Positions 36,409 through 49,904 of a stretch of 64,000 nucleotides of DNA are shown piece by piece. The DNA is taken from positions 1-64,000 of the forward strand of contig CAMJPL010000012.1 of the NCBI GenBank assembly GCA_946407735.1, written 5' to 3'. A program made the translations under genes and the position numbers. The stretch's first letter is position 1. Each line of letters starts with the position of its first letter. The notes beneath the pieces were generated by a model. That model worked only from the letters and a program-made list of their open reading frames with translations. It was not told the origin of the DNA and made no database searches. This DNA is from an uncultured Clostridia bacterium (GTDB taxonomy: Bacteria; Bacillota; Clostridia; Oscillospirales; CAG-272).

Positions 36409-39400
36409 TTATGATCCGGCATAGAGACGGCAGAATGCAGAGATCGCTCCTGCCACCTCGAAACGCTTCGCGGGGCGCATATATGTCCCGTCAATGGGAA
36501 TGATCTCATTGACAACCGCCCAGCGCACACACTCCTCCGCCCAGGAAGAATACCTGCCGGGAACGGGATCTGCGGCGTCTGTCATGTAACCCTTATAGTC
36601 TGCGTACCTGTACAGTATCGCGGCCAGCTGCTCGGACGTCACCGGATGTTCGGCCCGAACAGACCGTCGCCGTATCCGTTGACGATCCTCTCGGACGCTG
36701 CCCACTCGACAGCCTCCGAGTACCATATCCCGGGTTCGACATCGTCGAACACTCCCCTGAATGAGATATCGGGCGTCCCTTCGAGACGATGGAGGATGGT
36801 GACGACCATGCCCCGCGTCAGCGTGGAATACGGATCGAATCTGTCATCTGACACCGTTCATGATGCCGCTCTTGTAGACATATTCTACGTCATCGTAGAA
36901 GCTGTCCGCGGCTGAGACATCGGTAAACGGGATACCGCTCTCCGGTACCGTGACAGCGTGAGCATCTGCCGTTGTTCCCGAAACAGGCGGATACGCCGGT
37001 CTTTCCGAGTTTATGACAACGATCCCATGCGTGAGATCCCATACAGTCGGAGTGTACCCTCCCCATGGCAGGAAGGAGCCTCCGCCGCTTTTTTCCAGTC
37101 TGACGGTCCATATTTTGGTATAGACTTTTCCGTCAGGTCCGTTTGCCGCCGCCTCATAGGTGATGTAGCCGTCGGCAATAGCGGTCGCGGGGCTTTGCGA
37201 GATGATCTTTACCGTCGCGGGGACCACCGCGGAGCTGCCTCCGTCGCGCGGGATGAAGGTCACCGTGACATGTTCCGGATCTGAAATGTCCCATATCGGC
37301 GGCAGATAGCTGTCCGTTTCCCCATCCGCCGGAATGACATTGACGCTGATCCTCTTGTAGAGCGGCACGGAGGACATATCCTCAACGATGAGGTAGGTCG
37401 AGCCCTCACCCATGCCGATTACCGTCCCATCGTGCGATACCATCGCGACACCGCTGTCGAATGAGTAGTAGGAAAGTTCCTTAAGTCCATCCCACGGATA
37501 CGCCGGCGCGCTTAGCTGCGTGGTTTCTCCCGCCTTGACGGTGATCTCCTCGACGCCGCCGTTTATCTCCAGCGTCACGTTGCGCAGAAGCTGTCTGCGC
37601 TCGAAGAGAGACTCTTCAAGCTCCTCACCGTTGAGGGTGAAGGTGGCCTTGAGTCTCATTACGCCCATCTCGTCGAGATGTATGCGCGCGTCGAGATTCC
37701 TCAGCGGGATCACGGCGTAAACCGTTTCCGTGACGACCTGACCTTCGCCTTCGTTATCCATCGTGTCAGAGGGGATAAGCGCCTTCACGGGGACAAGATC
37801 GATCGTCGTCTCACCGAGCACACCGTTCTCAAGAACGCCCGTCTCTGTATCCTCGAGCGCCGTCGCGGTCATCTTCAGATTATAGCCGTCGACGTTTACG
37901 ATGTTGGTCACCGGGACGCACAGGACATAATCCGCGTAGCTGTCGCTGTCCTCCGTCGCTCTGAGGACTGCCTGTATCTCGGGATCGAACGGTTCGAGAA
38001 GGGCGTTGAATTTAGTGTCGAAATCTCTGCCTTCAAGCTCGTCAAGCACGGAGGCGTATACCAGAGGTATGATTTCCTCAGGCATGCTGTAAATCACCGC
38101 GTTTCCGAATTTCATCAAAGGCCCTGTCTTCGTACTCGCGGCGGCATGATTCTCGCCCAGCTTCTTCACGGCAAGTATCTGTTCACCGTCGAGTTCCAGG
38201 ACCTCCGCCGAAACGGTAAGCGCGCCGCCCGGTCCCGCGACGAACGTCTTTTCCGAGGTTACGGAAGAACCGGGATTGACGGCCGCGTCCGTCACGACTT
38301 CCGCCTCGCCGTTAACGGTGAGCTGATAGGTCCCGGCTGGCAGAAGACCGTTATTCTCAACCGTGACGGCGGCGGTGACTTTCTCCCCCTCGATCGGATA
38401 ATTGTCGGAAAGAATGATCTGATCTTCGCTGAATTTCAGGCTGTTGCCCGGAATAAAGTCTATCTCGGCCAGCTCATGATCCGAGTAAAGCACGTCTCCG
38501 TCCGCCGTGATCTCCTGTGAGTAGAGATTTCCGACCAGAATGGCGCTCTTGTCTCCAGCAATGCTGACGGTCAGCTATCTATGACCTTTCCGTAGTCGGT
38601 CAGCTTTACAGGATCGCTCCATACGGGAGTTCCCTTCTTTTCTTCCGCGGAAGAAAGCGCCCCGAGCGTTCCATCAAACACGTCGCCCAAAACAGCCCTT
38701 CCGAATCCCGCCGCGCTGCTTTGACGGTACATGGCCGCTCCGTAGAGCTCTCTGCTGAAGTCGTACTGCAGATCCTCGTTGTCCTGCGCCGTCCAGAACA
38801 GGTAGAGATTCCCGTCTCTGCCCGGCACAAGGCTGTGGTGTGTCAGGATCATGCCGTCCTGAGTGCCGTCAGCGCCTATTGAACCGAAGTCATGGCTTGA
38901 GCTGATGAAGCTGGAGAGCGAGAATTTATACAGCGTCGAATTGAAGACCTTGGGATCCTCGATCGAATCTCTGTATTTTTCCACAATATCATAGTAAGGA
39001 TGCTTATACCAGCCTTCCGCCGCGATCATGTCAGGGGACAGAGCGCGGATGCGGTCAAGGTTCGAGAAGGACATGGCAGAATCCCTGCCATGCGCCGTTC
39101 CATCCTCGTGATCCAGTCCATAGAACAGGTTGTATGCGCTGATGGTATTGAAGATCGTGCCGTTGTCAAGCCACGTGAGGTAAACATCGCCATCCAGCTT
39201 TGTAAGCTTCGGATCCAGGATGCTCTCCCGGCCGGCGTCGATCGGAACCGGGTAATAGCTTCTGTTGTCGGTGAGGTTCGTCAGCTGCACCCAGAGCTCA
39301 CGGTCAGACGTCGTCTCGAAGTTTTTGTCACCGTCCACGGTATAGCCGTAAATGCGGTAATCCTTCGTCACGCCGGCGAGATCGGTGTAGCTGAAATCGG

Positions 39401-42400
39401 CGGCGGTAAAGTCTGTCACCATCGGGTCGATCAGATATGGATGCCGGATCCAGATCAGCTCTTCCTCAGGGTTTATGCCGTCCGCGACACGGAGGAAGGT
39501 GCCCGATACGGGATCGTACACCTTGCGGGCCCATGTGTTGTAGTTGTTCGAGAGACCGACAAGATCGGTCATCTGATTCGCGCAGCTTACATCCTTCTTG
39601 AAGTAGTAGACGGCGACGCAGTCTTTTTCAGGGACAAGGATCGCGCTTGAGTTGATATATATGTCGTTCGTTACCTCGATGATCTCCCCGCTGAAGGTCT
39701 GCGTCACGCAGTCAAAGACGGTCATATGGATGTCGCTTGACTGGAGGGATGCCTTTGCGCTGTCAAGATTATCCGCAAAATCATCGGCGATGACGGCGTT
39801 GGTCCAGCTGATGTAGATTTTGTCGCCGACGCGCAGCGCGGAGAAGGTGCTGTCAGCTTCACCGTCATTCTCGATTACATCGGAAGCGATGTTGCCGTTG
39901 GCATCCTTTGCCCATGTCCCGTCGGCTTCGCGTATCGCCCAGACCAGCGTGGAGGCGTTGCGGTCATTGCGGTTCTCTGTGCCGGACATATTGCGCAGGA
40001 ACAGAAGCATCGACCTGCCGCTGCCGAGATCTACGATCTCTGGACGTATGAACTCTATCGCGCCGCTAATCAGCGTCGTCTTGGCTGTCGGAAGCAGGGT
40101 GCTCGAGAACTGACCCGACGCGTATTCCCTGCCGTTGTCAAATGCGCACAGCCCGTAGTTTTCGCCTATGCCGTTACTCTGTAGACCGCTTTTTCTGAAA
40201 ACGCCGGTGCTGTATGAAATAGTGCCTATCGTGTAATTGAAGGAGAAGACCAGCAGATCGACTCCGACACCTCCTGAGAAGGTGAGCTTCACGCCGCCGT
40301 TCGGTCCGTCCTTTTCCTCATCTATCCCCGCGTTGACTCTGGCAACGAACGCGAAGTCAAGGATTCCCCTGACGCCAAGGATACCGCAGACGCCGACACC
40401 GGGCTGAAGCTTGACGCCGACACCGAGCTGGAACCACGGCCACTCAATTTTGACCTTTTTGCTCAGAGCATCGGTGTACCCCATCTCCTTAGCGGTGGTT
40501 TCGCCCTTTTCGGTGACGTATCGGCCGTCAAACTGAACCGATAAGGTGCCGGTGATATCAAGATACACCGGTACGCCGAACACCATCCAGTAGAAGGTCT
40601 TCTTCAGATTGGCGCAGACAGAGATGACGTACTGTCCGCCGGAGAAGAAGTGCTCATTCTTCGATGGGTCGAAGTCATATTCAAACTGCAGCAGGATCTT
40701 GATATTGGCGGTAAGCTTGGTCTTGCCCAGCTTATTGAGAGCGTTCTGCTGTTCGTTCTTCATGAATTCGTCACGGAACGCGTTTTTCGTATCGGGATGC
40801 GAGTTGAAGTATTCGACAGCATCCTGATCGGTAGCGCCTTCATGACGCTGCTTATACCATTCGACATACTCGTCCCTGTCCGATCAATCGAGATAATCAA
40901 AGACATTGGAGGTGTTGTCGTTCAGCATATCATTCCAGCTCTTCGACGCGGGCTGGGCCGTTCCGCTCTGATAACTCTTGAGTTTATTCAGAGCAAGCTC
41001 AACGTCCTTCGTGTCAGCGGAAAAAGTGACGATCTGCGCATAGGGGCTGATGCCCTTATTCTTCGCGTCCGCGTATACCGTCTTCCAGCTCAGCTTGCCG
41101 CTGTCGAGATTGCCCGCCATGTCGCTGAGGACGGGCAGATCGCTGTATGGATTCGTGATATCATAATCAAAGTACTGAGACGGCGGATCAACCGCGGGCG
41201 TATAACAGACAAGACCGGTATCCAGACTGGTGTACTCGATCTCCTCCGTGCCGTTCGCCGGAGTGGCCTTCAGCTTCACATAGAAACGGTCTCCGTCCGC
41301 CAGTTCCGCTACGGCCGGCGACGCTTCGTACACGGCGGTCAGCAGCTGATCATCTCCACTGGTCTTTTTCGCTGTGATCGCGGTCTTGATGCCGTTGCGG
41401 GCGACCTTGGTGACGATCAGGTCACTTATATCGGCTCCGTTAAGGACAACGGTGAAGGTCAGCGTCAGCTCATCGCCCTCCATGATGGGAACGGTGTTGT
41501 ACCTGGTTTCCACCGCCGACTTCATATACCTGTAATCCACGCTTGAGACATAGGGACTGTGGTAGGTACGGATCGGCATATCGATCCTTTGAAGGGTATT
41601 CACCGCGCAGTCTTCGGTCAGACGGACATTGTCGTTTTTACCGGTGGATTCATTCGCCCTGAGCTCGTCGAAGGAAGCGGTGCGGCGGAACGATCTGTTG
41701 CCGACAGACCGCAGCGTGTGATAGATCACCTGCTGCATCTCGTTGTTGTCGACCATGACGGAGATCGTGTCGCCCGCCACGGCGCGCAGACCCTCGATAT
41801 GGAAGGTGCCGTCATCCTCGGTAGCGGCGGTATAGCGCCGCGCGGAAGAGACAAGGCTGCCGCCGGTGTTATAGATACGCTGGACCGCTCCGCCCGCCGA
41901 TACCGACGCCTGCATGGTCGGGGAAAGATTCAGCTCCTCCGACTGAGGCCGCAGGGAATAGGCGCTGTAAAACGCTTCGCCGTCAAGGATAAAGTATTCG
42001 TAATATTCGGGGGCTACCTGTTCCGCCGTGATCCGGATCACGTTTTCTTCGGCGTTGTTGGCGGCGATAAAGTCCGCGGCGAAGCCGTTTACCCTCTGTC
42101 CCGTGCCGCTGACGGTGATAACGGGACGCCATGAACCGTCGTTTGCCTCGGTGGAATCCAGGATCACGCTGTAGCCGCGCCTGGTCACCGGCGTGTAGCG
42201 GCCGAGCAGATCCGTTCCCTTCTCATCGGTGATGAGGACATTCTCCCCTTCGCGGACCGTGCCCGCGAGCTGACTCTGGGGGATAAGGTTCCTTACCGAG
42301 AAATACCTCGCGGCAATCTCATCCAGAATGATCCCTATATAGTTCTGGCTGTCCGTAAAGTGACCGCGCACTTCGTTTGTCGCATAGACGATGGTGCAGC

Positions 42401-44206
42401 CGGGCACCTCGTTCGGTCTGACATCGCGGGTACCGGACGTGTTCTTCTCCACGGCGGTGTCGCCGGGATTGATCTTCTGGTCATGGGTATACTGCGTGAA
42501 ATACACCCCGCCCACCGGAGTGGTCATACTGAGATTCAGCACGTCGCCAACATGGAACTCACCCGGGCAGACATCATCGACGCGGTAGGCTTCCGCTGCG
42601 CTCTCAGATGAGAAGAAAGCGACGTAGTCGATCAGGATCTGATCGCCCTCCCTCATCGCGCCGTCGCCCGACTTCCACATCAGGTCGATGCGAAGCCAGT
42701 TCGCCTTTCCTGTCCAGTAGGAAGATGTAAGCCTCGCGGACTTGATCGCATTTGCGGTCCTGATATTCTCTTCCGGAAGGCAGATCGCCGGACCCATCCT
42801 TCGTGATGGAGTACATGGTCCCGCTTTTGGAGGCGATGTACTTGCCGATCGGGCTCTTCTCGAACATGATGGTGCCGATGTTCGGATTGGAGGGATCATT
42901 GTATTCTATCTTAACGTCTCCGTAGTGATTCAGGTTGATCTGAGACGGATATTTATCCATCAGCGAGCCGCTCTGAAAGTCGTCGAGATAGGCATCGTTC
43001 ACGCGGCGCTCCGGCTGCTCCTTTGAAACGTATCCGGCAGGCACGGTTACGACGGCGGACATATCATCGCCCGCAACGGCGCCTTTCAGATCATAGAGCT
43101 CAACGAGGAAACGTGTATCGTATTCCTCTCCCTTTACCGGGATTACCGTGACCGCTTCGGTCTGATAGGGCTGGAATGCGAGCTCGATGTCGGTCTCCTC
43201 AAACACATCCGCGCCTTCGATCGTCACGGAGCGCAGTCTTGCCGTAACAAATGAATAGACCGCTCCTTCACGCTACGCCGTGACCGTGACAAAACCGTCT
43301 GACGCGGTATATTCGCCGGCGGAGAAACTCAGAACGGAGTGAATGACCGGCTCGTCGTCATCTATGATGAAGCTGACCGAAGAAGCCGCTTCGATGATGG
43401 CGGTATGATCGTCCGACGCGGACAAAAGGAAGTTAAAGATCTCCTCGCCCTCGCTCTCACTGTCCTCAAGGATCCGGAAGGTGAGGGCCCGCTCGGATTC
43501 GCCCGGCGCGAACGTCACGGAGGTCCGGGAGCTGATCTCCAGATAGTCCGCGATGTCGATGTTCATCTCGCCGAGGAAGTCCGCCGCGAGGGAGGTAAAC
43601 TCGCTGTTGGCGGTCTCTCTCACCGGCATGCCGCTCTGCAGAGCCTTCATTTCGGCCAAAGAGAGATCATCCGGATCGATGTCTTCTTCGGCAGTATTAT
43701 CCGCAGCCTCCGCGTCCTCTGACGCTTCCCGCGTGCTGTTCTCGATGAGGATCCGGATGCTTTCAAGCGCTTCCTGCGCCTGAAGACGGTTGGTCTCATC
43801 CCCTGATCTTTCGAGGATGGTGCCTTCCGTCTCAAAGACTTCGGTCTCCGCAAGAGAGTCATGAATGACGTAATCCATGCCGTACACGGCGGACACGTCA
43901 ACAGTGCTGACATACAGCTCGGAGCCGATGCTGAGATCGCCCGAGCGGCGGATGGTCAGAGTATAGAGTCCTTTTTCCGGCAGCGCCGAAGACGTTCGAA
44001 AGCGCTTCGAGGGACAGCGTTTCCACATTGTTCGCTTCCTCGCCCTGCCTCGACAGGATATAGTCCGACATCTCGTCAACGCTCGCTCCGCAGTCGTGAT
44101 TTTTCAGAAAATCAGCAGCCTTGTTCTCCGCGACCGCATCGGCAAAGCTCCTGCAGAGCTCTTCATCAGACCGGATCTCTTCGTACAGTTCCCTTATTGT
44201 TTTCAT
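36409..44206 (-). pseudogene. Decayed giant S-layer-type protein: Nif11-like leader segment, Calx-beta, Big_2-like and C-terminal SLH repeats
   Basis: Successive ORFs 44206-43898, 44079-43273, 43227-42604, 42899-40884, 40763-38571, 38493-36844, 36854-36639, 36726-36409 continue one protein through five frameshifts and two in-frame stops (TAG 43273-43275, TGA 40884-40886). Confidence 0.85.
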
Positions 44207-44262: not shown

Positions 44263-44940
44263 TCATAGACCGCCCAGTTCTCTATTTTGTACTTTTTCTC
44301 TCAGACTTATGAGTTCCCGTATACATTCCTTTGAAAGCTCCGGGAGCCTTGTCACGGCGTTCTTTCTCGCATCAGTCGCTCCGTCGGGCGTCAGCATCAC
44401 GGCAAGCAGTCTTCCGCGCATACGCCCGATCTGCGCCGGGACACAGCTCTCCGGATCATGGCTCTCGATGCAGGCTTTGCACACCTTGATCCGGATGGCG
44501 GAAAGGAGGAGATCCTCTCCGGCCTCATTTGTCCTGAACGCGAGCTCCGCCAGACAGTTTTCAACGTAGTCCGCCTGCCTGCGCCCTTCTTCCAGAGCTT
44601 TGGCGATCGCCTCGGTCCGCGGCGCGCCGCCGAGCCCCTCTGACAGGAATAAGCGCAGCTCCTCCGCACTTTTCCCGGCGGGATCGATACGCGATTTCTC
44701 CTCGCCGCCACTGAACACGAGCCAGATGGGCGAGCCGTCCACCGACAAGGCATCGGTGAACCAATGATCCCCGGTGTCCTCGATACATGCGGTATGATAC
44801 CCGTCCGCCTCATCATCGATCAGCCTTAGAAGCGGGGTTACGGAGGCACATGGCACGCATCACTTCTGCATATAGGCGAGAAGGAGAGTCCCCGCCCTCA
44901 ATGCCTCGGTCAGCTCTTCCGGTGAATGGATTTCTGTCAT
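44263..44940 (-). pseudogene. Thioredoxin-like protein interrupted by in-frame TGA at codon 27 (WCxPC Trp position)
   Basis: MTEIHSPEELTEALRAGTLLLAYMQK[TGA]CVPCASVTPLLRLIDDE...SPIWLVFSGGEEKSRIDPAGKSAEELRLFLSEGL; TGA at 44860-44862; SD-like aaggatg and 13-nt gap after nifS-like stop. Confidence 0.8.
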
Positions 44941-44953
44941 AATATCGTCATCC

Positions 44954-46084
44954 TTACAGTGATCGCATGGCGGCGACGGCTTCCTTCAGAGCGGCGGCGG
45001 CGCTGTCAAGCTCCTCACGCGTGGTCTCGCCAGACAGCGAGATACGGATCGTGCCGTCTGCCTCCGCGCGCGAAAGCCCGACAGATGTCAGGACATGGGA
45101 GGGCTCCCTTGAAGCCGCGCTGCAGGCCGCTCCCGTTGATACGCATATCCCCGCACGGTCCATCAGCATCATCAGCTCCGCCCCGCTGATCGCTGAGAAG
45201 GTCAGGCTGACGATTCCCGGCAGCCGCTTTGTCGGATGTCCGTTCAGCCTGACGCCCAGACTCTGTTCGAGAACACTCGCGATAAAAGCGTCCCGCAGGG
45301 CAGAGATCCGCTCCGATCCGCCATTCATGGATAACATCGCCGCTTCCGCCGCCGCGCCGAACCCGACTATGCCGGCGGTATTTGACGTTCCGGCGCGCAG
45401 TCCGTTCTCCTGACTTCCGCCGAAGAGAAGCGGGGTGAGCTTAAGTCCCCTGCGGATATAGAGAAGCCCCGCGCCTTTCGGGCCATGCAGCTTGTGTGCG
45501 CTCGCCGACAGAAGGTCGATGAACATCTCATCCGCGTTCAGCGGTATATGCCCGTAAGCCTGTACCGCGTCCGTATGGAAAAGAACGCCCCGTGAACGGC
45601 ATATCTTGCCGATTTCACGGATGGGCTGTACCGTCCCGATCTCGTTTGACGCGGTCATGACCGAGACCAGAGCGGTATCCTCCATCAAAGCCTGCCTTAC
45701 AGCTTCCGGGGAGACCATCCCGTAACGGTCAACGTCAAGATACGTTACGTCGGCGCCCATGCTCTTGAGAAATTCACAGCATCGCAGCACGGCACGGTGC
45801 TCGATCTTTGTCGTTATGACGCGGCGTTTTCCGGTCAGCAGCAGAGATGAACGGAGCGCCCAGTTGTCCGCCTCGCTTCCGCTCCCGGTAAAAACGATCT
45901 CCTCCGGGGAGGCAGAGAGAAGCGCCGCGCACTGCTCCCTTGCCTTCTCAACAGCCTGACCCGCGCGGCGGGCAAACCGATATCCCGCCGCAGGATTTGC
46001 ATAATCGGAAGTCAGAAAAGGCATCATAGCCGACAAAACCGGCTCGGTCAGACGCGTGGTCGCCGCGTTGTCAAGGTAGATCAT
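44954..46084 (-). CDS. Cysteine desulfurase (NifS/IscS family)
   Basis: MIYLDNAATTRL, HTDAVQAYGHIP, SASAHKLHGPKGAGLLYIRRG (PLP Lys), STGAACSA active Cys loop. Confidence 0.95.
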   Translation of the reverse strand: MIYLDNAATTRLTEPVLSAMMPFLTSDYANPAAGYRFARRAGQAVEKAREQCAALLSASPEEIVFTGSGSEADNWALRSSLLLTGKRRVITTKIEHRAVLRCCEFLKSMGADVTYLDVDRYGMVSPEAVRQALMEDTALVSVMTASNEIGTVQPIREIGKICRSRGVLFHTDAVQAYGHIPLNADEMFIDLLSASAHKLHGPKGAGLLYIRRGLKLTPLLFGGSQENGLRAGTSNTAGIVGFGAAAEAAMLSMNGGSERISALRDAFIASVLEQSLGVRLNGHPTKRLPGIVSLTFSAISGAELMMLMDRAGICVSTGAACSAASREPSHVLTSVGLSRAEADGTIRISLSGETTREELDSAAAALKEAVAAMRSL

Positions 46085-48659: not shown

Positions 48660-49904
48660 ATGATAAGACTCAGAATTGCCGCCGCGGCAGCTGCTCTCGC
48701 CGCGGCAGCCGCGATATTTTCATACGCAGACGATCTGCCGTTCACCGATGTCTCGGACAGCGACTGGTTTTACGACGACGTTGCGAGAGCATATGAGAGC
48801 GGGCTCATATCCGGGGTGAGCGAGACGCTTTTCGCCCCCGACCAGCCGCTTACATATGCCGAAGCTGCGAAGCTCGCCGCCGCCATGCATTTCTCCGAAA
48901 GGTACGGCGGACAGATATCCGTCTTTCAGGACGGCGGGAAATGGTATGAGCCGTACGTCCAGTACTGCTCGGAGAACGGCATCATTTCCGGCGCCGACGG
49001 ATATGACTGGGAAGCTCCCGCGACGAGAGCCGGATATATGTCGATCTTCGCCAATGCCCTGCCGGACGAGCTCATGCCGCCGATAAACGATATTCCCGAC
49101 GGCTCGATTCCTGACGTCGACTCGTTTTCAGCCGAAGCCGGGGGGATATATAAGCTCTACCGAGCCGGGATAGTTCAGGGCACCGGAGCCGATCACAGAT
49201 GCGAGCCCGACAGCGGGATCCGCCGCTGCGAGGTCGCGGCTATACTGACGAGGATGATCGACAGCTCGTCGAGGATCGGATTCACGATGGATATCGAAAA
49301 GCAGAAGCTCATCCCGGACGAGCCGGAGCCGGCGCAGCCCGAAACCTTACAGCAGCAGGGCGAGCATAAGATCGAAGTCATCGGCGGCGTGACATACATA
49401 GACGGCATCCTGATAGTGAACAAGACCTATTCCCTGCCGTTCGACTACGGTCCCGGCGGGCTGACGAAGGAATGCAGCGACGCCTTCGCCTCCCTGCAGC
49501 GGGGAGCGGCGGCTCAGGGGCTGAACATATACGCCGTCTCAGGTTACAGGTCATACGAATATCAGAAGGGGCTGTACGCGAGATACGCCGCCCGGGACGG
49601 CTACGCCGCCGCCGACAGGTATTCGGCGCGCGCCGGACATTCCGAGCATCAGACGGGGCTCGCCATCGACTGCAACAGCGTTTACCAGAGCTTCGCCGAC
49701 ACGGCAGAAGGAAAATGGCTCGCGGCGCACTGCCATGAGTACGGCTTCATTCTGCGTTATCCCAAGGGCAAGGAAAGCGTGACCGGATATATGTACGAGC
49801 CGTGGCATATCCGCTATCTCGGTGAGGATAACGCGAAAAAGGTCGCCGAAAGCGGCCTCACGCTCGAGGAATATTTCGGGGTAACGTCCGAGTACGCAGA
49901 CTGA
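48660..49904 (+). CDS. SLH-domain D-alanyl-D-alanine carboxypeptidase (VanY/M15-type)
   Basis: SLH repeats (FTDVSDSDWFYDDVARAYESGLISGVSETLFAPDQPLTYAE) then YAVSGYRSYEYQKGLY, SARAGHSEHQTGLAIDC, EPWHIRYLG. Confidence 0.9.
   Translation: MIRLRIAAAAAALAAAAAIFSYADDLPFTDVSDSDWFYDDVARAYESGLISGVSETLFAPDQPLTYAEAAKLAAAMHFSERYGGQISVFQDGGKWYEPYVQYCSENGIISGADGYDWEAPATRAGYMSIFANALPDELMPPINDIPDGSIPDVDSFSAEAGGIYKLYRAGIVQGTGADHRCEPDSGIRRCEVAAILTRMIDSSSRIGFTMDIEKQKLIPDEPEPAQPETLQQQGEHKIEVIGGVTYIDGILIVNKTYSLPFDYGPGGLTKECSDAFASLQRGAAAQGLNIYAVSGYRSYEYQKGLYARYAARDGYAAADRYSARAGHSEHQTGLAIDCNSVYQSFADTAEGKWLAAHCHEYGFILRYPKGKESVTGYMYEPWHIRYLGEDNAKKVAESGLTLEEYFGVTSEYAD

Follow-up and report, generated by a model that had tools for sequence, protein, structure and literature searches.

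Giant surface proteins that combine Calx-beta and SLH domains occur in gut Clostridia, where the copies of G058 (RUG12770) and G030 (RGIG5637) share the order Calx-beta, beta-rich centre, Ig-like and SLH. The G058 protein has three SLH repeats, and its gene lies downstream of a module of other genes. In the window, that is, the whole 64,000-nucleotide stretch of DNA analysed here (the initial 64 kb of a contig 75 kb long, one of 111 contigs in a 3.57-Mb genome), we find a copy with the same domain order and the same upstream module, but whose signal peptide and about 414 internal codons are gone and which carries stops and frame changes. Bacterial gene decay in general is already well known, and the decay itself is ordinary. 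Our literature searches returned nothing on point beyond one general pseudogene paper (Kuo and Ochman 2010, PMC2916853). The pseudogenes described there resemble the window copy in having been inactivated by nonsense codons, deletions and small frame changes while orthologues elsewhere are intact, but differ from it in that here many lesions lie within one very long gene; young Salmonella pseudogenes, according to the same paper, are usually removed quickly. For the peptide gene of the module, the described counterparts are Nif11-type and CCRG-2 precursors (TIGR03798 and NF033456), both of whose profiles the G058 precursor matches up to its GG motif with scores below the curated cut-offs (17.0 versus 32.3 and 20.5 versus 24). 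The leader in the window is a homologue of the G058 precursor leader, has a deleted core and itself matches neither profile.

The G058 orthologue lies on contig CACZNC010000051, recorded under RUG12770 as uncultured Ruminococcus sp., in a genome from the same family as that of the window. It is a single frame of 3,042 codons and the closest orthologue found; in a frame-aware alignment, the window copy is 58% identical to it over 2,464 codons, and a central piece of 770 residues reaches 61%. A scan of named genomes with the alignment query added further relatives, some of whose titles name sheep-gut assemblies or other RUG genomes, and we read the RUG names as pointing to the rumen as the host sample. 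The orthologues of G030 (2,629 codons up to the contig end) and G016 (2,547 codons) are each one open frame, as are many others, and in most relatives from the order and class the gene is one frame, about 1,800-5,100 codons long. The ancestral locus was therefore one giant gene, and comparison of orthologous loci, as the initial annotation had proposed, does yield an intact version.

That annotation had joined eight minus-strand ORFs into one broken protein. All eight are present where it placed them, and the later ones do belong to a giant SLH surface-protein gene whose lesions reappear in the alignment to the intact G058 orthologue; the first ORF (44206 to ~43984), however, is the leader of a separate peptide gene, and synteny with G058 rules it out as part of the giant protein. 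The remnant of the giant gene extends from 43983 to 36409 on the minus strand, on which all its pieces lie. Piece 1 (43273-43983) contains Calx-beta (Pfam, 4.8e-08) and ends in a TAG at 43273-43275 that aligns to a threonine (T) in G058. Piece 2 (42731-43272) ends at one or more internal deletion junctions, and piece 3 (40884-42730) ends in a TGA at 40884-40886 that aligns to a lysine (K). Piece 4 (38577-40883) is the beta-rich central region and runs to a small frame change at ~38576. Piece 5 (36850-38575) carries Big_2 (1.6e-05) and the start of the SLH region (7e-04) up to a frame change at ~36849, and in the remaining SLH repeats (36409-36849; 1e-09) the frame changes once more, at ~36647, before the gene ends at 36409. 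Both stops had been called from the sequence, as had the three last frame changes, then placed at ~38571, ~36850 and ~36641.

Two other proposed frameshifts turned out to be deletion junctions. At the one placed at ~42771, about 414 G058 codons (~1.2 kb) are missing between 42783 and 42731, in gaps of 282 and 132 codons that possibly reflect two events; the region of the first gap is also present in G030. The nearest orthologue is only 58% identical, so that at each large gap the side that changed, presumably the window copy, is inferred. When intact orthologues at 50% identity were aligned to each other with the same method, they gave no stops and no frame changes. A pair of apparent frame changes near 37128 and 36985 falls in a poorly alignable stretch and was put down to noise in the alignment, since in the window this stretch is read in a single frame.

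The other misread frameshift, at ~43972-43985, had been attributed to an A5 tract. The tract (43972-43976) lies within sequence derived from the giant gene and reads E-K-G, and is therefore not the lesion, which is a deletion junction at ~43984/43983 where the peptide leader is fused out of frame to about codon 67 of the giant gene. The window alignment begins at G058 residue 67, and a codon-usage HMM switches frame at 43986. The G058 module starts with the cysteine desulfurase and continues with the thioredoxin-like gene, the double-glycine-leader peptide gene and a gene for an S8 protease that has three SLH repeats; the giant gene comes last and begins with a signal peptide that the window copy lacks. 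The window retains an intact NifS/IscS-like cysteine desulfurase as the first module gene (44954-46084, minus strand; Aminotran_5, 1.6e-82), 70% identical to its G058 counterpart, followed by a thioredoxin-like gene (44263-44942, minus strand) with 52% identity to that of G058; the G058 gene matches Pfam Thioredoxin. The window gene is broken, as had been noted, by an in-frame TGA at 44860-44862, just before its CVPC motif, where G058 has a GGC glycine codon. The double-glycine, Nif11-like leader (43984-44206, minus strand) is 44-46% identical to its counterpart in G058, where the precursor is a stand-alone gene (L047:5321-5650) two genes upstream of the giant gene; the window leader reaches a GG-like motif and then enters the giant gene directly. 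The G058 precursor itself combines a double-glycine leader with a cysteine-bearing core, and no obvious maturation enzyme was found among the ORFs listed near it.

Comparing the two flanks base by base with L047 puts the absent G058-type sequence at ~1.99 kb, comprising the peptide core, the entire protease gene and the signal peptide of the giant gene. In both genomes, GGCG occurs where the leader meets the junction, and a deletion between short homologies is possible. Taking the single arrangement of G058 as ancestral, the change would be a loss in the window. A gene-fusing deletion can thus look like a frameshift when the sequence alone is read.

We consider it highly likely that the giant gene is a real and fairly recent pseudogene within an accessory module that is decaying. 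The five-gene order of G058 is most likely ancestral, and the ~2.0-kb deletion would have taken out the S8-SLH protease gene together with the peptide core on one side and, on the other, the 5′ end and signal peptide of the giant gene. Losing its start and secretion signal would have ended its function, and the other lesions may then have built up under relaxed selection; the gene-fusing deletion appears to have started or accompanied the decay. The module looks accessory since the central region of the giant gene has no match in genus mates and their matches to the module's cysteine desulfurase reach only 36-39%; it may have been acquired in the source lineage or lost in the genus mates. A second copy of the central region was not found in the source genome.

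An error of assembly or consensus, in which low local coverage, strain mixing or chimeric joining would have introduced the breaks into a gene that the cell carries whole, is the alternative that survives best, and we consider it improbable. Giant repeat-bearing genes are hard to assemble, and this genome is in many contigs. Against this, the HMM, which was trained on the source genome, flagged 5 breaks in the 7.8-kb gene versus 7 candidates in 387 kb sampled as stretches elsewhere in that genome, all 7 unverified and some maybe ordinary gene starts, a density about 35 times higher here. This agrees with the earlier view that the breakage is local and not a genome-wide error pattern. The lesions are also of mixed kinds (stops, small frame changes and two large gaps); none lies at a homopolymer, with no run of more than 5 bases near any of them, and the adjoining thioredoxin-like gene is broken too. 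The window protein also appears to have changed faster: in a relative-rate test with G030 as outgroup and no control gene, it has 229 private residue changes versus 151 in G058 (p = 7e-5), an excess that falls mostly in piece 4 (97 versus 42). Codon-position GC in the window copy is still normal, and the decay is therefore recent. Together, break density, homopolymer avoidance, rate excess and GC favour real local decay. Elsewhere in the source genome, an isolated in-frame TAG, a possible nonsense mutation, lies inside a long coding stretch (contig C1, L017:10797).

Programmed or reversible expression, by which phase variation, frameshifting or stop recoding would keep the gene usable, is very improbable. 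A short repeat, ATAGATAG, is present where the frame changes at ~38576, but it is the only two-copy tetranucleotide near the lesions and no break has a long repeat tract, so that phase variation, which had earlier been entertained, finds nothing in its support. Recoding of TGA or TAG was rejected because two kinds of stop occur alongside frame changes and stand opposite different residues (K and T, and G in the thioredoxin-like gene). Large parts of the gene, including the signal peptide, are absent, and the relatives use one plain frame. That the pieces are now separate working genes is hardly conceivable: each keeps codon periodicity, but some either have no start codon close to the 5′ end or interrupt the SLH repeats, and none has the ancestral signal peptide.

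Before it decayed, the gene probably encoded a secreted surface protein with an SLH anchor that served in binding or in coating the surface. Pfam matches to Calx-beta, Big_2 and SLH occur among the window pieces, the SLH repeats being present but cut by frame changes, and the signal peptide is present in G058 and absent here. Structure prediction for the centre (mean pLDDT 72, pTM 0.58) gives a beta-rich fold that is only weakly propeller-like. A sequence search of the PDB with the central region gave no hit, and fold matches, which include sialidases and propeller enzymes of GH43, GH93 and GH117, reach TM-scores of only 0.2-0.47; therefore, we claim no enzyme function.

Broken copies of the family also occur elsewhere. 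The G115 copy (L051) differs from a 73%-identical intact copy by a stop, frame changes and a large gap, the RUG14692 copy (L060) has two stops and two frame changes, and the RUG158 copy (L057) has one stop. A second G058 copy (L049) is truncated, the G851 copy (L097) has one frame change, and the single-contig genome G895 (L094) holds a short remnant with stops. It is rather doubtful, on these cases, that the giant family has been repeatedly and independently inactivated in gut Clostridia above what its length would lead one to expect; if it has, this would suggest that selection on a costly surface target fluctuates, for example through phages or the host. Should breakage exceed what length predicts, these multi-kilobase surface genes would lend themselves well to testing the rate at which giant surface proteins are lost. 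The locus is an example, backed by controls, of how a gene decays in an uncultured bacterium. Elsewhere in the window, an intact gene at 48660-49904 combines SLH repeats with a VanY-type D-alanyl-D-alanine carboxypeptidase domain.
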